From: Pararhizobium sp. IMCC21322
Lineage (GTDB): Bacteria > Pseudomonadota > Alphaproteobacteria > Rhizobiales > GCA-2746425
DNA: 64,000 nucleotides
Direction: 5' to 3'
NCBI RefSeq assembly: GCF_030758295.1
Contig: NZ_CP132335.1
Coordinates: 4,626,412-4,690,411 of the forward strand
Notes under the pieces: model-generated
Seen by the model: the letters and a program-made list of their open reading frames with translations, nothing else
Databases searched by the model: none
Told to the model about the DNA's origin: nothing
Translations under genes and position numbers: made by a program
Part shown: positions 1,266-51,404 of the stretch, one piece after another
Layout: each line of letters starts with the position of its first letter
Numbering within the stretch: position 1 is the stretch's first letter

Positions 1266-2948
<1,683 letters not shown>

Positions 2949-14723: not shown

Positions 14724-14935
14724 CCGCTTATAGTGATGCCCGGCACACCGGACATGGAAACCCTAGGCCAGCTTACACCGACACAAAACACCTGATCCAA
14801 TAGCCAAAATCCTCCGGCCCGCTCCATTCCCCTCATTGCATTCGGCTCCCGTGTTGTCGGATCGGCTGGCAAGCAGCCGCCGCAAGCGGTGAGGCTTTGG
14901 GGCGTTTTGCTTTCGGCACAACCGTCCAAAGAGAC

Positions 14936-14967
14936 GTCGCCTCCGATAAATCGGGGGCGGCTTTTTT
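14936..14967 (+). terminator. Rho-independent terminator
   Basis: A 12-bp stem with two G-T pairs (GTCGCCTCCGAT / ATCGGGGGCGGC), a two-base loop and TTTTTT. It would end plus-strand transcription about 100 bases before the ArdC start, either from the 13918 gene or from an unseen small RNA. Confidence 0.65.
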
Positions 14968-15065
14968 CGTTTTTGGACGCTCGCCGCGAGCAAGGTTTCA
15001 TGTGCGGGGTAGACAGAAGAAAGTCTGAAAACCTCGTTTTTGAAAACCAACAATGCGAGGAAAAA

Positions 15066-15953: not shown

Positions 15954-15966
15954 GGATTGCAGCACA

Positions 15967-15989
15967 GAGGCCAATCGCTGGTTGGCCTC
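15967..15989. repeat. Inverted repeat between ardC and the ParB-like gene
   Basis: GAGGCCAA and TTGGCCTC pair across a 7-base loop in the 87-bp gap. No U-run follows, so it is more likely an mRNA stability element or attenuator than a terminator. Confidence 0.4.
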
Positions 15990-16040
15990 GATGGTGCAAT
16001 TCCGCGCCTTTTAAAAACCTAACCACCCAAGGAGAAGACC

Positions 16041-17750
16041 ATGGAACTACAACATATTGAATTGAAAGATTTAAAAACAACAAAACTGAATGTCCGCAAA
16101 ATCGGTGCCAAGAACACCGCCGATCTTGAGGCCAGCATTCAATCGCTTGGCATTATCCAGCCATTGCTGGTACGTGCCAACTGTGAGGGCTTTGAAGTTG
16201 TCGCAGGACAGCGGCGCTTTCATGCTTTGAGCAAATTGGCGCAACAAGGCGAGATTGAGCCTGTGCCGTGCATTGTCATGCAAGAGGGCGATGATGCCAA
16301 AGCGATAGAGGCGTCCTTGGCGGAAAACATTGCCCGTCTGCCGATGGATGAAATTGACCAGTACAAGGCTTTTTCAGCGCTGGCAAAACAAGGGACAAGC
16401 ATTGAAGATATTGCCCTGCAATTCGGCATTACCGACAGGCAGGTCAAACAGCGCCTTGCCCTTGGCAATCTATATGCACCGATATTGAGCGCGTACCGCA
16501 AGGCTGAGATTAACGCAGGAACACTTCGCGCATTGACACTGGCAACCACCAAACAACAAAAACTGTGGTGGGATTTGTTCAAGAGCGAAGATCAACACGC
16601 CCCGCAAGGTCACAGCCTTAAAAGCTGGTTGTTTGGCGGCGCGAATATTCCACTGGAAAATGCGCTGTTTGATGTCGCAAATTACAAAGGCGCAAGCGTG
16701 TCTGATCTGTTTGAAGACGCCAGCTATTTTGATGATGCAACGAATTTCTGGACATTGCAAAATCAAGCCATTGCCGCCGCGAAGGAAACCTATCTTGCCA
16801 ATGGTTGGCAGGAGGTTATCATTCTGGATATCGGTGAGTATTGGAGCGATTGGGAATATGCGAAAGCCACCAAGAAGGATGGCGGCAGAATCTATGTCCA
16901 GATTGCCACCAATGGCGAAGTGACATTCCATGAGGGGTATCTGACGAGACAGGAAACAAAGCGCCAGAAGAAAGTTGAAGCTGGCGAAGTTGTGGCAGAC
17001 ATACAAAAGGCCGAGATTACCAAAGCCATGCAGAATTATCTTGCGCTTCATCGTCATAGCGCAGTGAGAACAGATTTACTCTCACATCAAGGCATTGCCC
17101 TGCGTTTGGCAGTGGCGCAGATGATTGCGGGATCTTCGCTTTGGAGTGTTCAGGCCGACCCGCAAATGGCCAATACGGACGCAATTGCCCAAAGCCTTGC
17201 AACCAATAAGGCAGAAAGCGTGTTTCAGGCAGAGCGCGAACGGGTGCAGAACCTGTTAGGCCTGTCTGGTGAAGAGGGCGAAACCATCGTACCGCGCAAA
17301 ACCGATTGGGGTAAAAGTCCTGATCTTTACGCCATAGTCGCCAAGCTGATGGAACTGGACGATGCCAGCGTCACTATGATTTTGACCTTTGTCGTTGCCG
17401 AAACCCTGCCGAGCGGTTCTGCGCTTGTTGAGGTGTTGGGCGAAAAACTGGGTGTCGATATGGCGAAGCACTGGCAACCGGATCAAACCTTCTTTGATCT
17501 GTTGCGCGACAAGGAAACGCTCAACACCATTGTCAAACAAGTCGCTGGAAAGAGCACGGCAGACGCGCATGTCGCCTCGACCGCCAAAGTCCAGAAACAG
17601 ATTATTCAGGACGGATTAAGCGGCAAGCGCAAGAATGGCAAAAAGGACTGGCAACCGGGCTATATGAGTTTCCCCATGATCGCCTACACCAAAAAGGGCG
17701 GCATTGAAGCCATGGACAGCCGCAAAGCCCTCAAGAAGCTGTTTAAATAG
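16041..17750 (+). CDS. ParB/Spo0J-family protein
   Basis: A 569-residue protein. The N-terminal ParB/sulfiredoxin-like domain has LEASIQSLGIIQPLLVR and VVAGQRRFHAL, and the helix-turn-helix reads TSIEDIALQFGITDRQVKQRLALGNL (about residues 115-140). A long C-terminal region typical of plasmid and ICE ParB-like proteins follows. It may bind DNA for partition, stability or regulation. No ParA partner is nearby, so it may not act in classical segregation. GGAGAAG precedes the ATG. A perfect terminator follows at 17765. Confidence 0.85.
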   Translation: MELQHIELKDLKTTKLNVRKIGAKNTADLEASIQSLGIIQPLLVRANCEGFEVVAGQRRFHALSKLAQQGEIEPVPCIVMQEGDDAKAIEASLAENIARLPMDEIDQYKAFSALAKQGTSIEDIALQFGITDRQVKQRLALGNLYAPILSAYRKAEINAGTLRALTLATTKQQKLWWDLFKSEDQHAPQGHSLKSWLFGGANIPLENALFDVANYKGASVSDLFEDASYFDDATNFWTLQNQAIAAAKETYLANGWQEVIILDIGEYWSDWEYAKATKKDGGRIYVQIATNGEVTFHEGYLTRQETKRQKKVEAGEVVADIQKAEITKAMQNYLALHRHSAVRTDLLSHQGIALRLAVAQMIAGSSLWSVQADPQMANTDAIAQSLATNKAESVFQAERERVQNLLGLSGEEGETIVPRKTDWGKSPDLYAIVAKLMELDDASVTMILTFVVAETLPSGSALVEVLGEKLGVDMAKHWQPDQTFFDLLRDKETLNTIVKQVAGKSTADAHVASTAKVQKQIIQDGLSGKRKNGKKDWQPGYMSFPMIAYTKKGGIEAMDSRKALKKLFK

Positions 17751-27768: not shown

Positions 27769-29284
27769 CAGACTGCTGACAAACCCCGTCATTTTTGGCG
27801 GGGTTTTATTTTTTGGTGTGATTATTGTCGGTTCAGTTCTGGCAGGATGAGGCCATTGTCTCATGCGGGCTTTGTTTGTGGTCTTTGTGCCATTGTATTT
27901 GCGATTTTTTTGATATTCTGTGCGGTGGCTGCCAGCAGGCATTGACAAGCAACCCTGGTCAAACTTCGGAACCGTGCATAGCGATGGCCGTGGAGTTGTT
28001 TGGCATCGGCGAAGGAACGCTCGACGGTCTCTTTCCGTCGCTTGTAGATGGCCTTGCCCCAGGGCTGTAGACGGTGGCTATCGGTACGCTCGCGGCTGTC
28101 CGCCCACACATGGCGGGCTATGGTGCGTTGCGCCTTGGTATTTGTGGTGCAGGAAGCCAGTAGTGGACAGGTTTTGCAGATGGCTGGGTCGGATGTGTAA
28201 TGGCGATAGCCATTGCGGCCGGTGGTGGCATAGCTTAGCATCTGGCCTTGCGGACAACGATAGCCATCGTGCTGCGGCTCATAGATGAACTTGCTCTTGC
28301 GCATCATGCCAGGTCTGGGCGGCGTCGGATTGCGGTAGCCCGTCACACCAAGAACATCTCTGTCTTCAAGTCCCTTGGCAATGCCGGTTGTGGCATAACC
28401 GGCATCAAGGCCTACGGCTTTTGGGTCAAAGCCAAAGCGGGCTTGCTGCCGGTCGAGGCGCTCCAGATAGACAATGCTGTCATGCACATTGGCCGGCGTC
28501 GCATGGGTGTCGGTAATGATGGCAAGTTTCCCGTCTACGGTGCGGTGATCGAGATAAAAGAAACCCTTGGGCTTGCCATCGCGCACCATATAGCCAGCCT
28601 CAGGATCGGTGCGCGAGATTTTGGTTTCCTTTTCCACCGGTTTGCGCTCGCGTTTCTTCAACGGCTTTTTGCCGCGGACCACACGGTCTTCATTGATGGC
28701 CGTATCCAGATCATCCCAATAATCGGAGCGTGATTTGACAACGACTGCCTTATCGTACCGGTTCTTGTTGGCATTGGCCTTCAGATGCGTACTGTCGGTG
28801 TAAAGCACGGTGCCATCGACCAGTCCATGAGCAATGGCCTGTTCAACTATTTGATCGAATATCGCCTGAGCCACCCTCGTGTCGCGATAGCGCCGTCGGC
28901 GGTTCTGCGACAATGTCGAAGCATCGAACACCCGATCGGTCAACTTCAGTCCCAAAAACCAGCGATAGGCCACATTAACCTCAATCTCGCGGGCAAGCTG
29001 GCGTTCCGAGCGGATGCCGAAAAGATAACCAATGAACAAAGCCTTGAACATCAAAACAGGATCAAGCGCCGGGCGGCCATTGTCCGGACAATACAAATCC
29101 GCAACCAGATCGTGGATAAACGAAAAATCAATCACCGCATCAATGCGACGGAGCAAATGATCCATGGGAACAAGCGAATCGAGCGTTACCATCTCGATCG
29201 CCGTTTGCTGGGATGGGGGTTTTTTCAACATAACACACTGAATCAAAAACCTCCGGCAAAAGCCAGAGGTTTGTCAGCAGTCTG
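27769..29284 (-). mobile_element. IS1182-family insertion sequence, 1516 bp
   Basis: The inverted termini CAGACTGCTGACAAACC (27769) and GGTTTGTCAGCAGTCTG (ending 29284) enclose one intact transposase. It sits inside the domain VI hairpin of the group II intron, flanked by exact 20-bp repeats of that hairpin. Confidence 0.9.
27861..29231 (-). CDS. IS1182-family transposase
   Basis: A 456-residue transposase. ATG 29231 begins MLKKPPSQQ; an upstream in-frame start would add five residues. The N-terminal domain has VPMDHLLRRIDAVIDFSFI, PALDPVLMFKALFIGYLFGI and YRWFLGL. The DDE core includes YTDSTHLKANANK, HVDSIVYLERL-like context, VGLDAGYAT and the cysteine-rich CKTCPLLASCT insertion. RRKETVERSFADAKQLHGHRYARFR supplies the final Glu. 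The frame is intact, so the element looks young. Confidence 0.92.
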   Translation of the reverse strand: MLKKPPSQQTAIEMVTLDSLVPMDHLLRRIDAVIDFSFIHDLVADLYCPDNGRPALDPVLMFKALFIGYLFGIRSERQLAREIEVNVAYRWFLGLKLTDRVFDASTLSQNRRRRYRDTRVAQAIFDQIVEQAIAHGLVDGTVLYTDSTHLKANANKNRYDKAVVVKSRSDYWDDLDTAINEDRVVRGKKPLKKRERKPVEKETKISRTDPEAGYMVRDGKPKGFFYLDHRTVDGKLAIITDTHATPANVHDSIVYLERLDRQQARFGFDPKAVGLDAGYATTGIAKGLEDRDVLGVTGYRNPTPPRPGMMRKSKFIYEPQHDGYRCPQGQMLSYATTGRNGYRHYTSDPAICKTCPLLASCTTNTKAQRTIARHVWADSRERTDSHRLQPWGKAIYKRRKETVERSFADAKQLHGHRYARFRSLTRVACQCLLAATAQNIKKIANTMAQRPQTKPA

Positions 29285-29304
29285 AGAAGCGCTTTCGCGC
29301 TTCT
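29285..29304. repeat. 20-bp target duplication of IS1182 (right copy)
   Basis: This copy is identical to 27749-27768. On the minus strand it reads as an 8-bp stem closed by a GAAA tetraloop, the tip of intron domain VI. Confidence 0.85.
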
Positions 29305-29311
29305 CCTCCCC

Positions 29312-29345
29312 GAACCGTACGTGCACCTCTCAGCGCATACGGCTC
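29312..29345 (-). ncRNA. Group II intron domain V
   Basis: A 34-nt hairpin on the minus strand. GAGCCGTATGCG pairs with the CGTACGGTTC side, with the conserved AGC-type catalytic triad region near the 5' base (GAGCCG). It lies just downstream of the reverse-transcriptase stop, as in other bacterial introns. Only 7 bases separate it from the domain VI hairpin. Confidence 0.88.
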
Positions 29346-29350
29346 TCCGT

Positions 29351-30877
29351 TCAAGCTTGGCCCAAGGCCATAGCAACATCACGATAGCGGGAAGTGACGG
29401 TGGAGCGGGTTTCCTCACGAAAGATGTAGGGATTGCGCTCCGGGGTCCGCCACTTGAACTGCGCTTTCGGGCTTGTGACCAGTCTGCGCAGTGCTTTGCC
29501 GATATGCACCCCACGTTGGTTCGTGTCGAAGACAAGCCAGGTCTTTGCCTTGCCCGCCTCCGGCACCCGGAACCATTTGCGCATCAAGGGTTTGATGCGT
29601 GTCCGGTATTTCCGGGCCAACCAGTGCGCCACTTTCCAGAACACGACATGGTCGATGCGCCGGAATGTAGTCGCAGTGAAGTCGGTGAACTTGTAGAATG
29701 CCGCCCATCCCGCCAATTGGCGGTTCAGACGGTCGATCATATCGACTTTCCCAACGTCGTGATTGCCGGAAAGGGCCTCGGACAGTTTGCAGACAAACGC
29801 CTTGGCCTTTTCCTTGGGTATCGTCGTCACGACGTTCCTACGTCCCCGTGACCCTCGCTTGCGAATGATCCGGTGCCCTAGAAAGACAAAACCGTCATTG
29901 ACGTGGGTGATATGGGTTTTCTCCATATTCAACGTCAGTTTCAGTCTGCCTTCCAGAAACGACCGGCATTCCTCACGGATGGTTTCGGCATGAGCCTTGT
30001 TCCCTTTGACGATGACAACGAAGTCATCGGCGTAGCGGCAGTAGGCGACAGCAGGTTTCCACTGCCGGTTCTCCTTCACCGCTATGGGACGGCCCTTTTG
30101 TATGCCGAAGTTCCATGCCCAGCGATCCTTACGGGCTTTCTTGTTCAGGTATTTCGCCTCCAGCCACGCATCAAACTCATGGAGCATGATGTTGGACAGG
30201 AGTGGTGAGAGAAACCCACCTTGCGGAACACCCTCGCTTGAAGCCCTGAACAGACCACGATCAATGTGGCCTGCCTTCAGGATGCACCAAAGTAGATCAA
30301 CGAACCGTGTGTCCCGAACCCGCCGCCGCACACATTTGAGAAGCAGCCGGTGATGCACCGTATCAAAGTAACTCGCCAGATCACCTTCGATGATCCAGCG
30401 GCCACGTTGATGGGTGCTATCCTGTAGCTGTATCTTCACGGTGCGCACAGCATGATGCACACTGCGTTCTGGCCGGAAGCCATAGGATAGGCGATGGAAG
30501 TTGCTTTCCCAGATAGGCTCCATGGCCATCAGCATTGCGCGTTGGACAATGCGATCCGTCAGGGTTGGGATACCCAACGGGCGAAGCTTGCCATTCGACT
30601 TTGGAATGTAGATCCGTTTCACCGGCTGCGGGCGATACCTGCCCGTCAGAAGTTCAACCCGCAATTGATCCAGATGGTTATCCAGAATGCCTTGCAGGCG
30701 TTGCTTATCCATCCCGTCAATGCCCGGGGTTCTCGCGCCTGACGACGACAGAACGATCCGGGCGGCCTCAGTAAGCCATTGCCCATTGGCGATGAGCCGT
30801 AAAAGCCGATCAAACCGGCGGGTCTGATCACTCTCGGCCCATGTTGCGAGCTTGTGTTGCATTTCGCTGATTATCAA
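29351..30877 (-). CDS. ltrA: Group II intron reverse transcriptase/maturase
   Basis: A 508-residue intron-encoded protein. RT motifs: IYIPKSNGKLRPLGIPTLTDR, LSYGFRPERSVHHAV, GDLASYFDTV, GVPQGGFLSPLLSNIMLHEFD and the catalytic YADDFVVIVKG. LGHRIIRKRG follows, then a maturase (X) domain with LNRQLAGWAAFYKF. No C-terminal HNH endonuclease is visible, so target-site cleavage may use the endonuclease-independent route. The start is TTG 30877 with GAGGTG upstream, or ATG 30862. The frame is intact although the intron RNA is broken by IS1182. Confidence 0.93.
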   Translation of the reverse strand: MIISEMQHKLATWAESDQTRRFDRLLRLIANGQWLTEAARIVLSSSGARTPGIDGMDKQRLQGILDNHLDQLRVELLTGRYRPQPVKRIYIPKSNGKLRPLGIPTLTDRIVQRAMLMAMEPIWESNFHRLSYGFRPERSVHHAVRTVKIQLQDSTHQRGRWIIEGDLASYFDTVHHRLLLKCVRRRVRDTRFVDLLWCILKAGHIDRGLFRASSEGVPQGGFLSPLLSNIMLHEFDAWLEAKYLNKKARKDRWAWNFGIQKGRPIAVKENRQWKPAVAYCRYADDFVVIVKGNKAHAETIREECRSFLEGRLKLTLNMEKTHITHVNDGFVFLGHRIIRKRGSRGRRNVVTTIPKEKAKAFVCKLSEALSGNHDVGKVDMIDRLNRQLAGWAAFYKFTDFTATTFRRIDHVVFWKVAHWLARKYRTRIKPLMRKWFRVPEAGKAKTWLVFDTNQRGVHIGKALRRLVTSPKAQFKWRTPERNPYIFREETRSTVTSRYRDVAMALGQA

Positions 30878-33287: not shown

Positions 33288-34943
33288 ATGACCGAGACCA
33301 CTAGTTTGCCACTTACAAACCCACCCGACGCTGCACGGCTGATATATGGACTCCGTGATACGGGCTACAGCTTCAATACCGCTGCGGCGGATGTCATTGA
33401 TAATTCAATCGCGGCGAATGCAGTTGAAGTACACATCAAAATCGCGATGAACGAGGACGGACGCAAGGTTGTCACGATCGGCGACAATGGAGACGGCATG
33501 AACGAGAAGAACCTGTTTGGCGCAATGAAATACGGCGCCCAAGCACGGCAGAGCCTCGCTAGCCTCGGGAAGTTCGGGCTCGGTCTGAAAACGGCATCGA
33601 GTTCGGTTTGCCTTCGATTTACCGTCATATCGCGAGATGCCGCGGACGGATCGCTAGCGAAACTCACTTGGGACCTCGAGCACGTCCAAAAGGCCGACAA
33701 ATGGGAGATGTTGCAGACGGAGGTTTCAGCAGATGAATACGACACGTTCGAGGAAATGTGCGGTGAGCGCGGTACTCTGGTCGTATGGGAGAACTGCGAC
33801 CGGATCCTTTCCAAGGAATATGCTAATCCGGGCGGTGCACACGAGCAGGCCGCGCTCAATAAACTTGAGCATAAGCTGATCGAGCACGCCTCTCTGATCT
33901 ACTACCGGTTTCTAGACAAAAACGACGGGCGCGAACGCGATGTGACCATCACTGTAAACGGCACGGCGGTCGACGCATGGAACCCGTTCTTCACCGAGAA
34001 GTCGGACCAAGTTCTGGAGACGGTGGCCCAGAAGATCGAGATAGTGCGGGAAGACGGCACAGACGGCGAGGCCACGATCAAGGCGTGGATTCTGCCCCCC
34101 CGGAGCCTTCTGACGAAAGAGGAAGAGGACCGCGCAAAGATCGCGAACCACCGGCAGGGGTTCTACATCCACCGCGAAGGACGCCTGATCCAGCAGGGCG
34201 GCTGGCTTGGTGTCTTCGGAACACTCGAACCTCACATGTCCCTATTGCGGGTAGAGTTCGACTTCAATCACGAGCTAGACGAAGCATTCAAGGTCGATGT
34301 GAAAAAGTCCCGAATTCACTTCGATCCCGCACTTGAGGCTCATCTCAAGGAGAGGCTTACGCCTGTCAGGCGCGAGGCGCAGAACCGCTATCGGCGAAAG
34401 AACAAAGAAGACACGGCCAACAATGAAATCAATCACTCAGGGTCGAACAACAACATCGCCGGCACTCAATCGACGAAGAAGCCGGGGGTCACATCGGTCG
34501 ATGTGGATGGCGGTACTGGGATCGTCAGCAATAACCATGGCACCGGCATCACTATCAAATCGCCGGTTCAGAACAACGTCGACCCCAAGAGCATCCATGT
34601 TGAGGCGGTTGACGATATAAACTCTGGCGAGCTTTATGAGCCTACCTTGCGCAGCACCGGAAACAGTGGGCACGTTCCCGCCGTGCGGATCAACAAGCAC
34701 CACGACTTCTACCAAAAGATCTACCAACGAGCGGCTGGCGGAGGGTTCGCGGTGCAGGGCATGGACCTGCTTCTGTGGGCGTTCGCCGTCGCGGAACAGA
34801 ACAACACGAACGAAGACCTCGACGCCGTGTTTGAGGACCTGCGCGACGAGGTGTCCGGCAATCTGAAGAAGCTCCTGCGAAACGTAGAAATGCCCGAAGC
34901 GGACGAGTTGGATAACGGTACGGACAATGAGGACGATGATTGA
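33288..34943 (+). CDS. MORC/MutL-like GHKL ATPase (defence cassette gene 1)
   Basis: A 551-residue GHKL ATPase. The ATP-lid motifs are clear: N-box AAADVIDNSIAANA with Asn39, G1 box IGDNGDGMN (residues 64-72) and G2 box LGKFGLGLKTAS (93-104). A transducer-like domain follows (KAWILPPRSL, GFYIHREGRLIQQGGW, VDVKKSRIHF with the Lys that usually contacts ATP). Then come a low-complexity Asn/Gly/Thr linker (about 375-450) and a helical acidic tail. GHKL proteins of this type clamp or move on DNA and are known in restriction-modification operons. It overlaps the HNH gene. No histidine-kinase features are present. Confidence 0.88.
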   Translation: MTETTSLPLTNPPDAARLIYGLRDTGYSFNTAAADVIDNSIAANAVEVHIKIAMNEDGRKVVTIGDNGDGMNEKNLFGAMKYGAQARQSLASLGKFGLGLKTASSSVCLRFTVISRDAADGSLAKLTWDLEHVQKADKWEMLQTEVSADEYDTFEEMCGERGTLVVWENCDRILSKEYANPGGAHEQAALNKLEHKLIEHASLIYYRFLDKNDGRERDVTITVNGTAVDAWNPFFTEKSDQVLETVAQKIEIVREDGTDGEATIKAWILPPRSLLTKEEEDRAKIANHRQGFYIHREGRLIQQGGWLGVFGTLEPHMSLLRVEFDFNHELDEAFKVDVKKSRIHFDPALEAHLKERLTPVRREAQNRYRRKNKEDTANNEINHSGSNNNIAGTQSTKKPGVTSVDVDGGTGIVSNNHGTGITIKSPVQNNVDPKSIHVEAVDDINSGELYEPTLRSTGNSGHVPAVRINKHHDFYQKIYQRAAGGGFAVQGMDLLLWAFAVAEQNNTNEDLDAVFEDLRDEVSGNLKKLLRNVEMPEADELDNGTDNEDDD

Positions 34944-35757
34944 TACCAAGGCAGGGCTGATCGGCCAGACAATCGCGAAACGAACGGGAGCAGATATCGC
35001 CATCGATGCAGCGCCGGAGGGATTGCAGAAAGGCCTCAGCATCCGGTTCGCCGACCTGAACAAGAATGGGGGGCCTCTCATCACGCTCAGGCCGAGTGGG
35101 CTTCACCGTCATAAGGTATCCTTGGGATTTGGCAGTTACTCGGGCTCGGTTGTTTCGTGCATTGCCCAAGCTAATCCCGAACAGATTACGCTCGCACGTG
35201 CCCTTGTGCGCTCGATCGACGTCGCAGCTACCTTGGCGTTCCCCTCATCCATGGACGTCGATAGCTGGGTAATCGACAGCCCGGCATTCTCCATGAGCGC
35301 TGAGCGCAAGGTTCGCGGGAACCGCCAGTCGGACGAGCAGATTATCGAGACCTGTGAAATTGTGGTTGTGCCAATCATGGCGGCGCTCGCGGAGCTGATC
35401 GGCTACGAGGATAAACAGCCGGCGACCGACGACGAGGTGGACGGTGAGCTGGAAGGCGCAGTGGCGGTTTCAACTGTTCAGCGCCGCGAACGAAACCCCC
35501 GCAACCGCCTTCTATGCCTTCTTGTCCATGGATACGCCTGTGCGACCTGCAGAACCGATCCCCGCAAGAAGTACGGTCCGAACGGCGCTGTGCTGGAGAT
35601 CCACCACCTTCAGCCTCTTTCGCAGATCAAAGCGCCCCGTGCCTACGACCCTCGGACCGACCTCGTTCCCCTTTGCCCCACCTGCCACCGTGTCGTGCAT
35701 TCCAGAAGACCTGTACCGTGGAGCCCGGCCGAGGTCGGAGAGATGATAAATGAGTGA
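34936..35757 (+). CDS. HNH endonuclease (defence cassette gene 2)
   Basis: About 273 residues. ATG 34936 (GAGG just upstream) or ATG 34927 could start it, and both lie inside the ATPase gene. An N-terminal domain of about 180 residues has no recognised family. The C-terminal HNH nuclease shows, by numbering from ATG 34927, the zinc pair C205/C208 (YACATCR), the catalytic HH at 226-227 (LEIHHLQPL), and C250/C253 with H254 and H258 (LVPLCPTCHRVVH). It should cut DNA. Its stop overlaps the helicase start by 8 bp, so the cassette is cotranslated. Confidence 0.88.
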   Translation: MIDTKAGLIGQTIAKRTGADIAIDAAPEGLQKGLSIRFADLNKNGGPLITLRPSGLHRHKVSLGFGSYSGSVVSCIAQANPEQITLARALVRSIDVAATLAFPSSMDVDSWVIDSPAFSMSAERKVRGNRQSDEQIIETCEIVVVPIMAALAELIGYEDKQPATDDEVDGELEGAVAVSTVQRRERNPRNRLLCLLVHGYACATCRTDPRKKYGPNGAVLEIHHLQPLSQIKAPRAYDPRTDLVPLCPTCHRVVHSRRPVPWSPAEVGEMINE

Positions 35758-37588
35758 TGATCCGGACGCATTATCTTGGTCTGTGCAGTACCGCGATCTG
35801 GCCTCGGTCCCTCCTGAAGGCTATGCCATATCGGAGCGGGTGCTTCCACCGCGCCTCGTAGTCCGCCGGACCAATAACGGGTTCGAGGTCGTTCTCTGTG
35901 GCGTCAGAATGATCCGCACGGAAGAGCGTGTGCTGGATGCCTTCAGCACGGCGCACAACTGGGTTCTGGACGGAACCACGATCCGGCCGCTTCCCCGTGA
36001 TGTCGCCGAAGCCCTTACGACCGCCTTTACCGGCTCGGACCTGAAGCAACCCAGTTTCAGCGAGGTGCTGGCGATCGCGCGACATACTCAGGATGTCGTT
36101 CCTGTTTCCGTCGACCCAGACGTTTTTGCCGCAGCCAAGGGTATTGCCACTGGCATGGGCGAAGGGTTCAAGGTCCCGGGCCTGCAGGCGACCCCTTTCC
36201 CTTACCAGACAGACGGTATCGCATGGATGCACCGGACACTCGCCGCCACGGGTGGGCTGGTCCTTGCTGATGAAATGGGGCTGGGAAAGACCATCCAGAT
36301 CATCGCGCTCCTTCTTCTGGAACCACCGGATACCGAAGCCCCTGCCCTCGTCATTTGCCCGACGAGCCTGATCACCAACTGGCAGCGGGAGATCGAGAGG
36401 TTTGGACCATCCCTGTCCATCCTTCAGCATCGAGGGGCATACCGGACCGGCATCGTGAGCGGGCTTCGCAAGGCACAGGTGGTCATCGCCACCTACGACA
36501 CCGTGGTCAATGATATTGCCCTGTTCTCTGGTACGCGTTGGTCGTGGGTGATCGCGGATGAGGCGCAGGCTATCAAAAACCCTAGCGCGAGTAGGCGTCG
36601 GGCGCTCGCTTCCATTCCGCGGGACCGAACAATTCCGATGACCGGAACACCAGTCGAGAACAGTCTGATGGACCTGTGGTCCCTTGCCGACTTCGCGATC
36701 CCCGGCCTTCTGGGAACGCGAGAAGAGTTCGGACGGCTCTATCCGGATGGCACGGAGGCGGCGCAAGAGATCTCAGACATGACATCTCCAATCGTGTTGC
36801 GGAGACGGGTCGCGGACGTGGCCGACGACCTCCCCCAACGCACGGACGTCGATGTGCCTCTTTCACTTGGGGACGACCTCGCGCGGGAATATAAAATGCT
36901 TCTGGCCGAAACGCTGGAGGAATACCCTGTAGCGGGTGCCTTGGTGGCGACCGGTCGTCTCCAAATGTTCTGCGCGCACCCAATGTTGAGGTCACGTCAG
37001 GGGCACGATGGCGAGGATCCCGATAGTGACGCGATAGCGGACGTGGAGGCCGGGCGGATCATGCCGACGCCGAAGCTGGAGCGCACCGTCGACCTAGTTC
37101 ATGAAGCCTTCGCGAATGATCGCAGGGTACTTATTTTCTCCACGTTCAACCGAATCGGAGACATTCTGCAGAGTTTGCTTGGCAACACGCCCGGCATGTT
37201 TTGGGGAACGATCAACGGGTCGACGCCAGCGGATGAGCGGCAGCCTTTGGTTGACCGTTTCTCAGAGCACGCAGGCCCTGCCTGCATGGTGTTGAATCCG
37301 AAAGCCGCAGGTGCCGGCCTCAACATAACGGCCGCAACAGTCGTGATTCACTACACGCAGGTCTGGAACCCGGCTCTGGAGGCTCAGGCGAGCGCAAGAG
37401 CGCACCGTCGAGGGCAGAAGCATCCTGTCACGATCTACCGCCTGTTTTACGAAGGGACGGTCGAGGAGGTGATGATCGACCGCTCCGCGTGGAAGCGCAA
37501 GCTTGGCAACGAGGCAGTGCCCGTATCGACACGCGACGCAGGTGACCTTTCGAGGGCGCTCTCCATTACGCCCAGAGGGACATCATGA
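35750..37588 (+). CDS. SNF2-family helicase (defence cassette gene 3)
   Basis: A 612-residue SWI2/SNF2 ATPase. An N-terminal region of about 145 residues of unknown fold precedes FPYQTDGIAWMHRTL. Motif I is ADEMGLGKT (173-181), motif Ia ICPTSLITNW, motif II IADEAQAIKN (D270, E271), motif III MTGTPVENSL (297-306), motif V LNPKAAGAGLNITAA and motif VI QASARAHRRGQKHPVTIYR. It is a double-stranded DNA translocase rather than a strand-separating helicase by family. It overlaps the next gene as ATGA. It probably moves the nuclease complex along, or remodels, invading DNA. Confidence 0.92.
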   Translation: MSDDPDALSWSVQYRDLASVPPEGYAISERVLPPRLVVRRTNNGFEVVLCGVRMIRTEERVLDAFSTAHNWVLDGTTIRPLPRDVAEALTTAFTGSDLKQPSFSEVLAIARHTQDVVPVSVDPDVFAAAKGIATGMGEGFKVPGLQATPFPYQTDGIAWMHRTLAATGGLVLADEMGLGKTIQIIALLLLEPPDTEAPALVICPTSLITNWQREIERFGPSLSILQHRGAYRTGIVSGLRKAQVVIATYDTVVNDIALFSGTRWSWVIADEAQAIKNPSASRRRALASIPRDRTIPMTGTPVENSLMDLWSLADFAIPGLLGTREEFGRLYPDGTEAAQEISDMTSPIVLRRRVADVADDLPQRTDVDVPLSLGDDLAREYKMLLAETLEEYPVAGALVATGRLQMFCAHPMLRSRQGHDGEDPDSDAIADVEAGRIMPTPKLERTVDLVHEAFANDRRVLIFSTFNRIGDILQSLLGNTPGMFWGTINGSTPADERQPLVDRFSEHAGPACMVLNPKAAGAGLNITAATVVIHYTQVWNPALEAQASARAHRRGQKHPVTIYRLFYEGTVEEVMIDRSAWKRKLGNEAVPVSTRDAGDLSRALSITPRGTS

Positions 37589-39660: not shown

Positions 39661-40920
39661 ATGAACGCACATCCACCGACAGAATTTTCGGAATTGTTGG
39701 AGCGTGCAGGCCTCAGTATAGAGACTGCGGCAGAGCTGCTGGACGTAAGCGAGCGCACAATTCGCCGCAACATCAACGGTGAAGGCAAGCGGATCGACCA
39801 GCTCAGGCTGGCCAAGCTGCGCGAAGCCGCAGACTCCCGCTGCACCGGAGAGCGGCCTGAAGGTTTCCGGTTTATCGATCTGTTCGCCGGGATCGGGGGG
39901 CTGCGCCGTCCCTTCGAGACTATTGGCGGGCGATGCGTGTTTACTGCCGAGTGGGATCGCTTTAGCCGCGAGACCTATAACGCAAACTTTCCCGAACCTG
40001 CCTACAGCGATCATGTCTTCGCGGAGGATGTGCGACCATTTGCCGACGCACCGGACCAGATTCCGGCGCATGATGTCCTTCTGGCCGGTTTTCCATGCCA
40101 GCCGTTCTCTATTGCGGGTGTCAGCAAGAAGAACGCACTGGGCCGACCTCACGGCTTTCTGTGCGATACGCAGGGAACACTGTTCTACGATCTGGCGAAA
40201 ATCATTGCCCACCATCGCCCGCCTGCCTTCCTGCTGGAAAACGTGAAGAACCTGCAACGCCATGACGGCGGCAAGACCTTTGCAACGATTATGCACGTCC
40301 TTCAGAAGGAGCTGGGATACAACGTCAGTCACCAAGTGGTCAGTTCGACGCCTTGGGTTCCGCAGAAGCGCGAACGGATTTTTATTGTCGGTTTCCGCGA
40401 CGATGCCAGCTTTGACTTTGATGATCTGGCAGTCCCTGAAGGCGATGGCCCGAAACTTGGCCGCATACTCGACAAAGATGTAGACCCGAAATACACCCTG
40501 ACAGAGCATATGTGGAAATACCTTCAGGGCTATAAGGAGAAGCACCGCAAAGCAGGGAATGGTTTTGGGTTCTCCCTGTTCGGTCCCAATGACGTCGCCC
40601 GTACCCTGTCAGCCCGTTACTACAAGGACGGCTCCGAAATCCTGATCGAGCAGAAGGGCAACCGGCCCCGCCGTCTGACCCCGCGTGAGTGCGCGAGGCT
40701 TATGGGGTTCGAAAAACCCGGAGAGACCAAATTTCGTATCCCCGTATCCGACACACAGGCATACCGGCAGTTCGGCAACGCGGTTGTCGTGCCTGCGGTG
40801 CAGGCTGTGGCCAATCTGATGGAGCCGCACATAGCAGAGGCGCTTGAGCGTGATGGACGCGCCGTGCCCTCTCTGCAACAGCGCAAGCTACTTTTGCCTG
40901 AGCAGGGCGTTGCGGCCTGA
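39661..40920 (+). CDS. dcm: DNA (cytosine-5) methyltransferase, Dcm/M.EcoRII-like
   Basis: A 419-residue C5 methyltransferase. A short N-terminal helix-turn-helix (IETAAELLDVSERTIRRNING, residues 19-40) precedes motif I FRFIDLFAGIGGLRRPFE, motif IV LAGFPCQPFSIAG with the catalytic Cys, motif VI LLENVKNL, motif VIII-like WVPQKRERIFIVGF, the target region with RPRRLTPRECARLMGF, and motif X AYRQFGNAVVVPAVQAVA. With an EcoRII-type endonuclease beside it, the likely target is CCWGG. It should protect host DNA. The N-terminal HTH may let it repress its own promoter, as M.EcoRII does. Confidence 0.92.
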   Translation: MNAHPPTEFSELLERAGLSIETAAELLDVSERTIRRNINGEGKRIDQLRLAKLREAADSRCTGERPEGFRFIDLFAGIGGLRRPFETIGGRCVFTAEWDRFSRETYNANFPEPAYSDHVFAEDVRPFADAPDQIPAHDVLLAGFPCQPFSIAGVSKKNALGRPHGFLCDTQGTLFYDLAKIIAHHRPPAFLLENVKNLQRHDGGKTFATIMHVLQKELGYNVSHQVVSSTPWVPQKRERIFIVGFRDDASFDFDDLAVPEGDGPKLGRILDKDVDPKYTLTEHMWKYLQGYKEKHRKAGNGFGFSLFGPNDVARTLSARYYKDGSEILIEQKGNRPRRLTPRECARLMGFEKPGETKFRIPVSDTQAYRQFGNAVVVPAVQAVANLMEPHIAEALERDGRAVPSLQQRKLLLPEQGVAA

Positions 40921-40923
40921 ACC

Positions 40924-41397
40924 ATGTGTGCCGACCATGTGACGCCAACCGTTCGCAGCCGGATGATGGCTGGTATCAAGGGCAAGAACACCAAGCCTGA
41001 AATGATAATCCGATCCGCGCTTCACCGGCGCGGAATCCGTTTTCGGCTCCACCGGAAAAACCTTCCCGGAAAACCCGATCTTGTCTTTAACGGACGCAAC
41101 GCCGTGATTTTCGTTCATGGGTGTTTTTGGCACGGCCACAACTGTCATTTGTTCCGCTGGCCAAAGAGCCGCCAGGATTTCTGGCGGGAGAAGATCAGAA
41201 AGAATACCGAGCGTGACCGGAGGCAGTATCTGGCCCTTGCCGATAATGGCTGGCGCATTGGCACGGTTTGGGAATGCGCCCTGAAGGGCAAGACCCGTCT
41301 TTCTATTGAGGATATTGCCGATCAGTGTGCCATATGGTTGAAATCGGATATAAAATCACTGGAGGTAAGCGGAAATGAAGCGGGGGCAACTGTCTGA
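40924..41397 (+). CDS. vsr: Very short patch repair endonuclease Vsr
   Basis: A 157-residue Vsr protein. Signatures: VRSRMMAGIKGKNTKPEM, GIRFRLHRKNLPGKPDLVF with the catalytic Asp, FVHGCFWHGHNCHLFRWPKS, and FWREKIRKNTERDRR. Vsr nicks at T:G mismatches left by deamination of 5-methylcytosine in the methyltransferase site and starts repair. It follows the methyltransferase by 3 bp and overlaps the endonuclease gene by 23 bp, a standard M-V-R order. Confidence 0.93.
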   Translation: MCADHVTPTVRSRMMAGIKGKNTKPEMIIRSALHRRGIRFRLHRKNLPGKPDLVFNGRNAVIFVHGCFWHGHNCHLFRWPKSRQDFWREKIRKNTERDRRQYLALADNGWRIGTVWECALKGKTRLSIEDIADQCAIWLKSDIKSLEVSGNEAGATV

Positions 41398-42592
41398 CTA
41401 TTTTGAAGGTGTCGGGATTAAACGTTTGTCCGCCGTCGATGCTGAACCGAAAACATCCAACCAGCACGAAGTTGGCACAACCAAGAAGATGCGGGATGAT
41501 TTTCTGGGTGAGACACACCAGCAGAAATTCCCTGCGATCTACATCTGGCTTGGTGGTGATCAAGAAGGCATCACTGAAGAAAGCTGGGCGACGCATTACG
41601 ATTCCCGCTTCAATAAGCCACGCGCCGCTGAATGGCGGCTTTACTACCCCTCCAATCCTGTCACCGAGGCCATGGGCGAGGGTGACACCCTGTTCCTTGC
41701 CAAAGACCAGAGTGGCCTTCTGTGGTTCATCGTAGCCCCTGAAAGCTCCACCAGCGAACAGCAGCTCTTCTGGCTGTTTGGCCTGCGTCCAGAGGGAAAG
41801 TCCTTTGTATCGCGCGAGTTCTCAGTCGAAGAACCAGAGCTGGACTTCGCGGCCCGTTTCATCCTGGATGAGATAGGTGTCGAGTTTGAGGAACCGGAGG
41901 CGGACAAGCTGGACGCCATCATCTACAAGTTCGGGACCACATTTCCGAAGACGGCCGAGTTCTCCGATCTTGCCCGCCTCACATTGCCCGAGGTCAGAGC
42001 CGAGGATGACCCTGACGCCGCGCTGATCGCGTGGCTGGACCACGAGGAGGCGCTGTTCAGGCGTCTGGAGCGCCGGGTTGTGTCATCAAGGATCGAGGCA
42101 GGATTTGTCAATAGCGACGGCACCGATGTTGATGGCTTCATCAGTTTTTCGCTGAGCGTTCAAAATCGCCGGAAATCGCGCATGGGCCATTCATTGGAAC
42201 ATCATTTGGCGGCAGTTCTAAGGTCGCATGACGTTCAGCACGTCCGTGGCGCCGTTACAGAACACAATCACAAGCCTGACTTTCTATTCCCTGACCTCGC
42301 CACTTATCAAACCGCTCCGCCAGAAGGCGATGTGAGGTTGACCATGTTAGGGGCAAAGTCCACCTGCAAAGACCGCTGGCGGCAGGTCTTGGCAGAAGCG
42401 GAAAAGATCAGTCGAAAACATCTTGTGACTCTAGAGCCGGGAATTTCCGAGCCGCAAACGCACCAGATGGAAGCATCGAGCCTTCAATTAGTCGTACCTA
42501 AGCCAGTTCAGGCTAGCTACACAGTAGCGCAGCAGGGATGGCTTTGGTCTGTTGCGGACTTCATTGGGGCGGTCAGATTAAAGCAGACCTGA
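41375..42592 (+). CDS. EcoRII-like type IIE restriction endonuclease
   Basis: A 405-residue protein, nearly EcoRII length (404). The N-terminal recognition domain (about 1-150) has IKRLSAVDAEPKTSNQHE and RAAEWRLYYPSNPVT. The C-terminal PD-(D/E)xK nuclease domain has SVQNRRKSRMGHSLEHHL, HNHKPDFLFPDLATY (Asp302) and MLGAKSTCKDRWRQVLAEAE with Lys328, then HLVTLEPGISEPQTHQM. These match the EcoRII-C signature. It should cleave unmethylated CCWGG-type sites with two-site activation. It overlaps vsr by 23 bp and closes the island. Confidence 0.92.
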   Translation: MKRGQLSDYFEGVGIKRLSAVDAEPKTSNQHEVGTTKKMRDDFLGETHQQKFPAIYIWLGGDQEGITEESWATHYDSRFNKPRAAEWRLYYPSNPVTEAMGEGDTLFLAKDQSGLLWFIVAPESSTSEQQLFWLFGLRPEGKSFVSREFSVEEPELDFAARFILDEIGVEFEEPEADKLDAIIYKFGTTFPKTAEFSDLARLTLPEVRAEDDPDAALIAWLDHEEALFRRLERRVVSSRIEAGFVNSDGTDVDGFISFSLSVQNRRKSRMGHSLEHHLAAVLRSHDVQHVRGAVTEHNHKPDFLFPDLATYQTAPPEGDVRLTMLGAKSTCKDRWRQVLAEAEKISRKHLVTLEPGISEPQTHQMEASSLQLVVPKPVQASYTVAQQGWLWSVADFIGAVRLKQT

Positions 42593-47335: not shown

Positions 47336-50137
47336 CTACCTCTCCCGGCGCAGCTTGTTTGACCTTGTTGGTGCAGGCACACGCTCCCGCTTCATTCCTG
47401 GCATGTTGTCGCTGTCGCTATAGAAGCGGGCGTCATGTTTGTGGCGTGTGAGAGCGACGTAGGTCAGGTGTTTGTCCAGCGTTCGCGACGATAGGACAAA
47501 TGATCTATCCACCGTTGCGCCCTGGCTTTTGTGGATGGTGGTGGCGTAGCCATGATCAATGGAGGCGTATTGGCTTGGGGAGAAGGTCAGGCGGCGCGGG
47601 CTGCCGTTATTGGCACCATCAAGGGTAACGAATATGTTGTCTTTGGTGATTTTTTCAATCGTCGCTAAAGCACCATTCTTAACGCCAAGCTCGGTATCGT
47701 TTTTGGTGAAGATTATGCGGTCATTGGGGGCGAAGGCACGCTTGCCATGAGTGGTTTTGAAATAATGCTCATCGACCAGTTCACCGCTTGATTTGCGAGC
47801 CATGCGAACAGCCTGATTGATAGCATGGACATCTTTGCGGCGATGGGCGAAGGCCAGCCGTGAGGCGCTGTTGCCGCGTGTTTCGATATCAACCATATAA
47901 TCCTGTACCAAGGCGGCAATGGCGTCATCCTGGCTTTTGGTGGTTTTGACCGCGCCGTGCTTTTGATAGGCATCTATCGCCTTTCCGGTATTGCCCGTCG
48001 CCAGATCAAGCGAGGCTTGGCGCTGCCAGTCTGATTTTTGGCGACGAATTTCTGTGAGTTTTGCCGCGCCAATATTTTCAGCAATATCTTTAAACGGCGT
48101 TCCCGCATTGATGGGCTGTAATTGTTCTGGGTCGCCGACAAGAACGAGCTTTGCACCATATTTCTTGGTGTGCTCGACAATACGGTTCAATTGGCGTGTG
48201 CCAATCATTCCGGCTTCATCAATCACCAGAACATCGCCGGGTTTTAATTGGTTGTAGCCGTTCTTCCAGCTCATTTCCATCGAGGCCAAAGTGCGACTGA
48301 TAATGCCGGAGGCGCTTTGCAGACCATCGGCAGCTTTACCGGACAATGCCGCACCAAAAACCTGATAGCCTTGTTTTGTCCAAGCCTCATGCGCGGCGGC
48401 AAGCATAGTGCTTTTACCGGTCCCGGCCAAGCCGATAACGGCGCTTATTCGTTCTGGATTTAGAATATGATTTATCGCCGCTTGTTGCTCATCGCTCAGG
48501 CTTGCCCCATGCAATTTTTGCAATATCGCGTTTTGACGTTTGATGGCGTCATGCGTATGGGTAGATTTCACGCCATGAGTGTTTTGATCGACCATGATTT
48601 TTGCGTCATGGGTGAGCCCGCTTTTAAGCCCCTCCATTTCCCGCGTTGAATAAATCGGTAGCGGATCACTTTTGATCTCGACCAGTTCTTTCGAGCGCAA
48701 AACCGCATCGGAGGCGGCGCGTAAGGCCAACGGATCATCGATATAATTAGCCAGCCCGTGTAGAATATCACGGCGGTTAAACTCGGACTTTTTATCGGTG
48801 ATAATATCCAGAATTTTAACCGGCGATTGCCGGACTTGTTGCGCCGTATAGAGTTGGTCTTCTTCGGGCAGTAAAAGCGCTTGGTCGGGATCTGCCAACA
48901 GATCGACACCAAGCAGCTGTTCGTTAAGGTCAAAAGCATTCTCGCGATGCAGTTTCGCCAGATGCACCGCGTGTTGTTCTTTGAGGGCGCAAAATTCTTC
49001 CTCTAAGCCGCGTCTTTCACCGAGCTGCCTTTCAATCAGTTTTTGCAGCTCCACCTGGTCACGGATTTTATCTGCTTCTGCGGCCTGTGTGTGTTCAGCA
49101 CGCAAAACGTCGTATCTGCCGGAAAGCCGCGCCCAGAGTGCTTTCACTCCTATCGGTAAAAGCGCGACGCGGGATTTAACGACTTCAATCCGGCGCGTCT
49201 CTTGTGCTGCCTCCAATGCTGCACGTGTTTGTCTGTGATCACCGACAAGAGCGCGGCGTTTTGATTCAAGGGCATCAATTTGATTCTGAAAAAGTGTTTC
49301 AGCTTCTGCAAAGGCGGCATCAAACGGAGCGCCCACCTTATCGGCAAAGCGTTCTGTGATACGCAATTGGACATCATCAACAGAAGGCAGCTTTTCAATA
49401 TCACCAAGGCGCGCGCGTAAGTCTTTGGTCTTCACGCCAAGCCAGCGCGAAAGCGAATAAACTTCGCCCTGACCATCAACCGCAACAAAGCCGCGTCTGT
49501 CACCCTTGGCGAGTGTCAAACCATGTTCAGACAGAGCGGCGGCAAAGGCGGCCTTTGAATCAGAGCCCGCCCAGCAACCCAGCAAAAGGCTTTTTAATTC
49601 CTTTGGGTCACGTCGAACCCTTTTTGCTTGCTGGTGTTCAGCTTGGGAGTAATTGAGTTGGTCTCGTTCCTCGCTGTTCATCAAACCGCGTGGCATTTGC
49701 CAACCATGTTCAAGGAATAGCTCCCGCGATAGTTCTTGTAGCTTGCGCTTGTAAAGTGAGACATTCAGCGCACGCATGCGGACAATATCAATGCGTGACC
49801 ACACACAGTGGGCGTGACGTCTGCCTTTCTTCTCGTGAAAGATAATTGCGCGGGGTTGGCCGGTTAATCCAAGTTTTGCTTCAATTCCGGCAATGGCTTG
49901 TTCATATGCTTCGACAGAAACACTCTCCATTTCCGGCGGACTTAAGACCAGCGAGAACATGAAGTTCCTGCACTTCGTTCCCCGGCTCACCGCATAGGCT
50001 TCTGTTAAAGCCTCGGTCAGATCATCAGATACAAATCCAGAAATTTCATGCACGCGGACATGCTCATTCTCACGCGTGTTCAAAAGATGCCGCGCCAATT
50101 GCGCAGCACCACCGCGTTCATTGCCCTTTAAAATCAA
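47336..50137 (-). CDS. Relaxase fused to a TraA/RecD-type helicase
   Basis: About 933 residues. The start is TTG 50137, which overlaps the mobC stop (TTGA); the conserved strand LILKGNERGGAAQLARHLL begins there. N-terminal relaxase domain (to about 170): EISGFVSDDLTEALTEAYAV, FMFSLVLSPPE, and the metal-binding GRRHAHCVWSRID. A coiled middle follows. The C-terminal helicase has Walker A VIGLAGTGKSTMLAAA, Walker B DVLVIDEAGM, LVGDPEQLQPI and a UvrD-like end (YATTIHKSQGATVDRSFVL, YVALTRHKH). It nicks oriT and pilots the strand in conjugation. Confidence 0.92.
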   Translation of the reverse strand: MILKGNERGGAAQLARHLLNTRENEHVRVHEISGFVSDDLTEALTEAYAVSRGTKCRNFMFSLVLSPPEMESVSVEAYEQAIAGIEAKLGLTGQPRAIIFHEKKGRRHAHCVWSRIDIVRMRALNVSLYKRKLQELSRELFLEHGWQMPRGLMNSEERDQLNYSQAEHQQAKRVRRDPKELKSLLLGCWAGSDSKAAFAAALSEHGLTLAKGDRRGFVAVDGQGEVYSLSRWLGVKTKDLRARLGDIEKLPSVDDVQLRITERFADKVGAPFDAAFAEAETLFQNQIDALESKRRALVGDHRQTRAALEAAQETRRIEVVKSRVALLPIGVKALWARLSGRYDVLRAEHTQAAEADKIRDQVELQKLIERQLGERRGLEEEFCALKEQHAVHLAKLHRENAFDLNEQLLGVDLLADPDQALLLPEEDQLYTAQQVRQSPVKILDIITDKKSEFNRRDILHGLANYIDDPLALRAASDAVLRSKELVEIKSDPLPIYSTREMEGLKSGLTHDAKIMVDQNTHGVKSTHTHDAIKRQNAILQKLHGASLSDEQQAAINHILNPERISAVIGLAGTGKSTMLAAAHEAWTKQGYQVFGAALSGKAADGLQSASGIISRTLASMEMSWKNGYNQLKPGDVLVIDEAGMIGTRQLNRIVEHTKKYGAKLVLVGDPEQLQPINAGTPFKDIAENIGAAKLTEIRRQKSDWQRQASLDLATGNTGKAIDAYQKHGAVKTTKSQDDAIAALVQDYMVDIETRGNSASRLAFAHRRKDVHAINQAVRMARKSSGELVDEHYFKTTHGKRAFAPNDRIIFTKNDTELGVKNGALATIEKITKDNIFVTLDGANNGSPRRLTFSPSQYASIDHGYATTIHKSQGATVDRSFVLSSRTLDKHLTYVALTRHKHDARFYSDSDNMPGMKRERVPAPTRSNKLRRER

Positions 50138-50583
50138 TGTTGCGTCTGCCCGCCAATACCGAGCGCCTGCGTCAGATCGAGCCGCATTGAGCGCACATAG
50201 GCATAGGCTTCGTTGATCTGGTCTTCGCTCTGCTGATCCAGTAATAGCGTGCCGCAATTGGCGTCATAGGCAAGCTGGTTCAGATTATTGGCAATCCGCG
50301 ATTGCCCCAATAATCCCAACACCCGTCCCAAAGCTTCTTGATCTTTGACAGGAGCGCGAAGCCTTATCTTGCGCGGCGCACTATCACCGCCAAACAGACA
50401 CTTACGAATATAGGCACTCACCGACATTCCCGCCGATAAGTGTTTTAGCTGCGCCAGTTCCTCATCTGTCACCCGAAAACCCACGAACGGCGGCTTGGCT
50501 GGCTTGATTGCTCCATTGGTGACGGCATCCGCAAACACAGCGCCAACAGCCTTACGGCCCTGAAACCCGCCGTCCTTCCTCAT
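50134..50583 (-). CDS. mobC: MobC-like relaxosome protein
   Basis: A 149-residue accessory protein. The MobC signature LGRVLGLLGQSRIANNLNQLAYDANCGTL lies in the C-terminal half, after a ribbon-helix-helix-like segment (FVGFRVTDEELAQLKHLSAGMSVSAYIRKCL). It should bind oriT and help the relaxase. It overlaps the relaxase gene. The ATG has no good Shine-Dalgarno. In the excised circle this ATG would overlap the recombinase stop as ATGA, so its translation may depend on coupling. Confidence 0.88.
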   Translation of the reverse strand: MRKDGGFQGRKAVGAVFADAVTNGAIKPAKPPFVGFRVTDEELAQLKHLSAGMSVSAYIRKCLFGGDSAPRKIRLRAPVKDQEALGRVLGLLGQSRIANNLNQLAYDANCGTLLLDQQSEDQINEAYAYVRSMRLDLTQALGIGGQTQH

Positions 50584-50686
50584 AGCGATGGCCCCCGAGG
50601 GCGAGTACTGCGCGCCGCCAGCGTTCGTTTTGCTTCTGGTGATGTTATGTCTGTTGCATGATACAGCAAGTTAAGTTGTGGGCGCA

Positions 50687-50699
50687 CTCCCGCAACCAA
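50687..50699. repeat. Second att-like repeat
   Basis: CTCCCGCAACCAA differs from the att core by one base and lies exactly 51 bp (17 codons) before the right att site. It may be a trace of an earlier insertion or a secondary site. Confidence 0.55.
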
Positions 50700-50737
50700 T
50701 GCCTCTTGGTTTTTCATAAAGTCGCGTTTAGGGTCAG

Positions 50738-50750
50738 CCCCCGCAACCAA
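50738..50750. other. Right attachment site
   Basis: CCCCCGCAACCAA is identical to the tRNA-fMet 3' end at 1331-1343 and in direct orientation. It is the right border of the element of about 49.4 kb. The bases beyond it (from 50751) should be the DNA that originally followed the tRNA. Confidence 0.8.
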
Positions 50751-51404
50751 AATTTTCCTTATTAATCAATATGTTAGACCTAGTCGAGATTTTGCGTTGT
50801 TTCGCGATTTTCGAATTAATAAGGCTATAATAAGGTGGCGGAATAGCAATCAGTAGGAAAGCAGGGTGATTGCTGCTCTGAATTGCGGCGCAAATCAAAG
50901 ATATCCATGTTCAATTTCGCGACGCAAATCATCTGCGCAACCGCTGAAACTTGGTTCACTTAGAAATCTGAATAGCAACTGCTTCATGCGTCTCAATATA
51001 CTGCATTATGCAGTGGTGACAGATCGATAATCCGCTCTCACGATACAATGAAGCCATCATCGGATGATGATATTCTGGCGGAATTGGTAATTATTTTGAT
51101 CTCAACCCATGATCTGATTCGTGTTTCGATGTAAAAATGGGCGGGCGGCAGACTTTCGTTTCAGTTCACATAAACGGTCGCTATGCGGACAAAGCGCACG
51201 CTTGGAACCATGACTTGAATGTCAATTTAAATGCATCCCGATCTGGATGTTATCAGCTGCGGATGCCGAGGCGACTGATCGCTTTGAACGCAACAGTTCG
51301 GCTGCGATGACCATGATAATTCTGCTGTTTTTGAATTTGAGTCTCTAACGAATTTGTTCCGTTGCCCTCCTTGTGCTTTTAACCAATTACGGCCAAAAGT
51401 GATT
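50751..51404. other. 654-bp chromosomal stretch without a supported gene
   Basis: AT-rich DNA just outside the element. Short frames have no ribosome-binding site or family signature. The promoter of the antiporter gene should lie near its end. No remnant was recognised. Confidence 0.5.

Follow-up and report, generated by a model that had tools for sequence, protein, structure and literature searches.

SSV-type archaeal integrases carry attP inside the integrase gene, so that integration splits the gene, which is whole only in the circle; the split is taken to inactivate it. In mycobacteriophage BPs, attP lies in the repressor gene, and integration-dependent immunity, with one protein having two C-termini, has been demonstrated experimentally (PMC4557955). 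Circle-dependent transcription is known from Tn916 (PMC11658703) and ICEKp1 (PMC13023037), where joining the ends brings transfer or integrase genes under the control of a promoter at the opposite end; we group ICEclc, a further ICE with circle-dependent expression, with these two. Fusions of a serine integrase with an RDF indicate that a C-terminal addition can alter the direction of the reaction (PMC5737554), and the att sites of serine-recombinase prophages in Alphaproteobacteria are hard to find (PMC6536676).

Here we analyse a 64,000-nt stretch of the genome of Pararhizobium sp. IMCC21322 (the window). As read from its sequence, the window holds an element whose integration splits a recombinase gene, and only the excised circle is predicted to encode the full protein and to set its gene directly upstream of mobC and the relaxase gene.

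Results

Borders and predicted circle junction of the window element

The features of the element, in window coordinates, are as follows.

1266–1342, plus strand: tRNA-Met(CAT) gene, the integration target, with its 3′ CCA end within the att core; its antisense strand codes the recombinase end VGFEPTTFRL
1331–1343, no strand: left att core, CCCCCGCAACCAA (13-bp repeat; empty site in G003)
1299–2948, minus strand: large serine recombinase (LSR), integrated form, 549 aa (Pfam Resolvase, Recombinase, Zn_ribbon_recom)
5316–6788: coupling protein (domain search)
47336–50137, minus strand: relaxase with a TraA/RecD-like helicase domain and a probable TTG start over the mobC stop (TTGA; ORF and domain search)
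50134–50583, minus strand: mobC, NikA/MobC-like accessory protein, 149 aa (domain search)
50580–50583, minus strand: ATGA overlap of the circle-form recombinase stop and the mobC start (in-silico join)
50591–50597, minus strand: G-rich Shine-Dalgarno-like stretch for mobC, CGGGGGC, inside the tail (sequence)
50580–50737, minus strand: tail frame with the C-terminus ..RPRGPSL and stop, predicted to continue the recombinase frame in the circle only; its last residues are like those of relatives' tails (GPTRRGPSP and stop in L141)
50738–50750, no strand: right att core, CCCCCGCAACCAA (13-bp repeat; empty site in G003)

The 13-bp repeat is maximal in the sequence of the window. The left and right flanks, when joined, match an uninterrupted site in a congener (88%, query 2–453, at G003:C3:8580–9032), indicating that the borders of the element are correct and backing the proposal of the initial annotation that the circle junction lies at the repeat. 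The integrated LSR gene has 549 codons: positions 1344–2948 are encoded by the element; positions 1299–1343 comprise the core and antisense tRNA; and the final residues of the C-terminus (..QQAALVAGVGFEPTTFRL) come from antisense tRNA-Met. The protein has the hallmarks of a large serine recombinase, namely Resolvase N-terminal, Recombinase, and zinc-ribbon domains that all exceed their cut-offs (PF00239, PF07508, and PF13408), a short shared core (13 bp), and precise insertion between the attB halves, as seen from the empty site in G003.

Joining the ends in silico gives a circle in which the recombinase frame starts at 2948 on the minus strand, runs for 591 codons, and ends ..RPRGPSL at a TGA at 50582–50580. 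Counted from the start of the core, 56 codons lie past the junction (about 52 after the core), and two bases of the TGA also belong to the ATG of mobC (50583–50581). This in-frame join and overlap had been described in the initial annotation, and the description is correct to the base. The accompanying argument, that such coupling is unlikely to arise by chance, fares less evenly. When the region from core to mobC is shuffled with dinucleotides preserved, 16% of shuffles hold the frame open to the exact stop, given the ATGA and an in-phase length; including the phase factor of 1/3, the chance is about 5%. The argument is weak for the window alone and becomes strong only once relatives are counted. 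A coincidence at the 5% level would suit a reading in which attP falls close to the LSR gene's end by chance or under DNA-level constraint only, and the frame across it is meaningless; we return to this reading with the comparative data.

A second core-like copy, CTCCCGCAACCAA, is located at 50687–50699, inside the tail and 51 bp inward of the right core; a plasmid LSR (L138) has a similar doubled core-like motif, on the LSR side. The genome also contains a second place that matches the tRNA 3′ end and the right flank of the window element at 81% (L077, G000:C1:2148546–2148840), about 1 kb from another serine recombinase.

Gene content and translation signals

The window element carries its own recombinase, relaxase, and accessory protein, as expected of an integrative mobilizable element. 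No VirB4 was found among the element's proteins that were scanned, and the element has no other unassigned ORF of VirB4 size; among the ORFs scanned, it appears mobilizable, not self-transmissible. The cargo comprises plasmid-like genes at 14889–17750 (an ArdC-like anti-restriction gene and a ParB_N gene); a group II intron reverse transcriptase adjoining a DDE transposase at 27861–30877; three adjoining genes with HATPase_c_3, HNH, and SNF2/Helicase_C domains at 33288–37588, possibly, from the domains alone, a defence island; and restriction-modification genes at 39661–42592 (a cytosine-5 methylase, a Vsr mismatch endonuclease, and an EcoRII-C type restriction enzyme).

The coding sequence of mobC ends in TTGA, so that the relaxase gene can start at the TTG at 50137–50135, in agreement with the overlap of these two genes noted earlier. 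The earlier view that mobC is without a good ribosome-binding site is not supported: a Shine-Dalgarno-like G-run lies 9–13 nt 5′ of mobC, in the final codons of the tail, exists in both the integrated and the circular state, and pairs as well as those of relatives. Because this site is available in both states, mobC could also be expressed in the integrated state from a flanking promoter. A promoter scan, itself weak evidence, found no σ70-like promoter at 50100–51000.

Related elements in the same genome and genus

Close copies of mobC (82–84%) occur at two other sites in this genome and at one in a congener, and further relatives comprise one 64% copy and one remnant 14 kb left of the window. 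Upstream of every such copy lies a reading frame whose stop overlaps the mobC start in an ATGA. The remnant (L013, G000:C1:4611803–4612026) consists of a tail and a mobC N-terminus, the latter closest to the window copy.

Four complete elements of 35–56 kb were delimited, E1–E3 in the genome of the window (G000) and E4 in G004, each having tRNA-Thr sequence and an antisense LSR at the end opposite mobC. In E2–E4 the tRNA-Thr gene is whole; E1 adjoins a 3′ fragment of it (L039, G000:C1:3513244–3513520). Joining their ends at a 7–8 bp core gives, in 4/4, one frame that leads from the LSR through the tail to the ATGA of mobC. A search with the E2 flanks gave matches reaching no further than the tRNA end or slightly beyond it, which leaves the E-type without a clean empty site; the empty site is demonstrated for the window element only.

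Comparison with these elements suggests that the window element is a derived case. Specifically, the sole match of the window LSR to any of their LSRs in its genome is 36% over about 95 residues, to the LSR of E3, and on sequence the LSR of E1–E4 belongs to another lineage. By comparison, the window mobC is 82–84% identical to the E1, E2, and E4 copies. The lineage of the window LSR mostly reads into antisense tRNA-Met, and in some relatives, such as L109, L123, and Rhizobium phage RR1-A, a VAG motif is followed by a short, unsplit end; in the phage collection, window-type LSRs such as that of RR1-A stop shortly past this core-like motif. The window tail contains two VAG copies, is without the LFE.L.DW motif, and has no relative above noise among 372 genomes; its last codons (RPRGPSL) resemble the tail ends of relatives (GPTRRGPSP and EGPTP). 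We infer that an unrelated, tRNA-Met-specific LSR/att module replaced the ancestral one, and that the tail motif was lost in the window element while the tail end, Shine-Dalgarno-like site, and ATGA coupling were kept through the swap. Several tRNA-Met-specific LSR genes (L138, L139, and L004) have hairpin-like GC-rich sequences in their 3′ part, which could terminate the tRNA transcript.

Related elements across Alphaproteobacteria

A search of 385 alphaproteobacterial genomes, sampled at one genome per species, found mobC matches in 20. Most of the matching loci have an upstream tail of the pattern ES.N.LFE.L.DW..QLK, and the tail overlaps mobC by 4 bp at 20 loci. Of 20 genomes searched for an E1-lineage LSR, 18 contain one (E at most 1e-43). 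Full-length LSR matches to the joined query stop at about the att core, and the frames of E1-lineage LSRs continue into the antisense strand of diverse tRNA genes, 18/19 sharing one phase at the CCA end.

Thirteen further end pairs, eight of them on a single contig, could be joined (for G109 by hand, at GGCGCACC), and 13/13 are in frame. With the window, E1–E4, and the five validation elements described below, the LSR, core, and tail form one frame in 23/23 mobC-carrying elements with pairable ends, a count in which five end pairs lie on different contigs and the cores are short (5–10 bp). The tail stop and the mobC start overlap by exactly 4 bp in 20 of these, by more in two, and not at all in one. 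The elements target tRNA-Thr, Leu, Arg, Val, Ala, Ser, and Met, and their hosts are Alphaproteobacteria. The check on relatives at other sites that had been proposed with the initial annotation therefore bears it out, with the frame conserved throughout and an overlap, exact or longer, in all but one. As the same in-frame junction is predicted for every element that could be joined, the junction looks selected, not accidental. The 23 cases share descent and are thus not independent; the nearest to independent are the module swap in the window and two compensated frame shifts.

Prediction of frame phase

A second search covered 398 genomes from the phylum, again sampled at one per species, and provided LSR loci in previously unused genomes, all Alphaproteobacteria. 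Pooled with loci recovered from the order to which G331 belongs, these gave 17 LSRs that adjoin a tRNA gene; 15 enter it in phase 1 and two enter it in phase 2. Selection on the fused frame would require every phase-2 LSR to have an equally shifted partner tail. For the phase-2 LSR in G585 (L212), this was predicted before its partner was sought: mobC was found 22 kb away on the same contig, preceded by a phase-2 tail (K/NGAPQGSNLELSDLDNCLSEIANW..LRGPRP and stop) with an ATGA over mobC. An earlier phase-2 LSR, in G331 (L081), has its partner tail on another contig (L015), and this tail is also in phase 2; these two are the phase-2 LSRs for which a partner was located. For a further one, L213 in G708, a phase-2 partner tail is predicted. 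Two shifted LSRs matching two shifted tails correspond to p = 1/253 if phases are independent, a rough figure since the elements are related.

In four other new elements, too, mobC lies at the end opposite the LSR and its upstream tail is in frame. Among the five validation elements, the overlap with mobC is exactly 4 bp in four and longer in one; the tail regular expression matched 0/5, and the tails were found by reading upstream of mobC.

The tail as part of the recombinase

Beyond the first nine alignment columns, distal to att, divergent pairs of tails have pS of 0.6–0.98, near saturation, against pN of 0.15–0.36, and close pairs have dN/dS of 0.03–0.46. These ratios place the tail under purifying selection at the protein level. 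Selection distal to the att arms, the compensated frame shifts, and the in-frame junction in 23/23 all argue against the chance or DNA-constraint reading, which the comparative data largely refute and which we consider extremely improbable.

The first codon of the integrated tail comes partly from the host flank, so that the tail has no conserved start: ATG, GTG, TTG, ATA, TTT, and CAG all occur. A candidate stand-alone ORF for the tail was rejected for this reason. A related reading would make the tail a separate small protein of the integrated state, started at an xTG from the antisense CCA end at attR. In many elements the antisense CCA does supply a possible start codon, but in some the first codon is ATA, TTT, or CAG; in the two phase-2 tails, which keep step with their LSR, the xTG lies in another frame; and upstream lies host flank, without an element-borne ribosome-binding site. 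We regard a separate small protein as very improbable.

The recombinase reading of the tail is supported by a 27-kb phage contig (L165), in which LSR and tail form one unsplit gene of 533 codons, ending ..VLVDISGESSNSFLDILRNWSDALNPYKSTLLAA, with neither a tRNA nor mobC adjacent. We read this gene as the natural attP form, which shows from sequence that the tail belongs to the LSR. It is the only unsplit copy found in IMG/VR: the L165 query returned itself alone, and a scan with alignment A2 added none. The plasmid collection held no unsplit ancestral LSR and tail at 80% coverage, and the phage collection held only distant relatives of the E1-type LSR. The predicted structure of L165 is confident to about residue 493, and the tail has pLDDT below 50, so that its contacts are unreadable; the modelled fold stops close to the position of the core. 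A cut after the folded part implies that the integrated and circle forms of the LSR are probably both active. Sequence comparison indicates that the tail is the conserved C-terminal segment of most related recombinases, and in L165 it is unsplit; the circle-only product would thus also be a different recombinase, a point absent from the initial annotation.

ATGA overlaps are frequent in bacterial operons. The tail might accordingly have been selected only as the recombinase C-terminus of the free form, with the mobC overlap reflecting operon compaction without a regulatory role. Consistent with this, the tail is conserved in phage L165 with no adjacent mobC and in two elements without overlap (G125 L024 and G004 L010), from which tail function and coupling are separable. 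Set against it are the exact overlaps in 20/23 elements and the two longer ones, across deep divergence, the Shine-Dalgarno-like stretch in the tail end, and the window itself, which keeps the coupling despite a lost tail motif. We consider a purely C-terminal role unlikely, though well worth keeping in view.

Discussion

The split-gene architecture and the extent to which it is conserved are shown by sequence, as are protein-level selection on the tail, the two frame shifts with matching compensation, and one natural copy of the gene that is not split. The best explanation is a split LSR gene that would be complete only in the circle, where LSR, mobC, and relaxase would form a translationally coupled operon; we assign this reading a probability of about 0.74. 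In the mechanism proposed, attP would lie within the 3′ part of the LSR gene, and in the free circle a single ORF would comprise the catalytic and DNA-binding domains, the core, and a tail of about 35–70 residues. Because the tail stop overlaps the mobC start and the last tail codons hold a Shine-Dalgarno-like site, the three genes would be one translationally coupled operon in this state. Recombination with the 3′ end of a tRNA gene would cut the LSR gene at the core; the integrated LSR would end in residues from antisense tRNA, and the tail would be left at the other end of the element without an upstream frame or promoter. Transcription from the LSR promoter would enter mobC only in the circle, the tail may alter LSR behavior (such as whether the enzyme integrates or excises), and expression of mobC and relaxase would rise in the circle, making mobilization dependent on excision. 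Such circle-dependent mobilization is plausible.

More generally, and only tentatively, tRNA-targeting LSRs of Alphaproteobacteria might sense element topology through the reading frame, the circle supplying an activity-biasing tail and switching on a coupled mobilization operon, and integration removing both. The arrangement suggests that a single recombination event can alter the recombinase and at the same time switch transfer genes on or off without a dedicated regulator. Circle junctions can be predicted from it for a group of elements that is widespread but little studied and in which the att cores have only about 5–10 bp in common, and it may help explain why the att sites of alphaproteobacterial serine-recombinase prophages have been elusive (PMC6536676). 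It also provides a natural test of the effect of a C-terminal tail on a serine integrase, which would be useful for genome-engineering tools.

We found no description of this arrangement in the literature searched, which included only a minority of subscription journals. As in SSV-type elements, attP lies inside the recombinase ORF, which is whole only in the circle, as seen here from the joins and from L165. SSV-type integrases are tyrosine recombinases, whereas the window element encodes serine recombinase domains; the SSV-type split is taken to inactivate, whereas the LSR here loses only a C-terminal tail past its folded domains and, from the predicted structure, is probably active; and here, unlike in SSV-type elements, the tail leads into transfer genes. 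As in BPs, one protein has two C-termini, one per state, but the protein switched in BPs is a repressor, whose longer free form carries a degradation tag, whereas here it is the recombinase itself, followed by mobC. Serine integrase–RDF fusions are engineered, whereas the tail here is natural, and an effect on direction is conjectured only by likeness to them. As in Tn916, ICEclc, and ICEKp1, joining the ends in the circle gives transfer or integrase genes an upstream input from the other end; in those elements the link across the joined ends is transcriptional, whereas here the link is one reading frame that spans the junction and overlaps the gene that follows.
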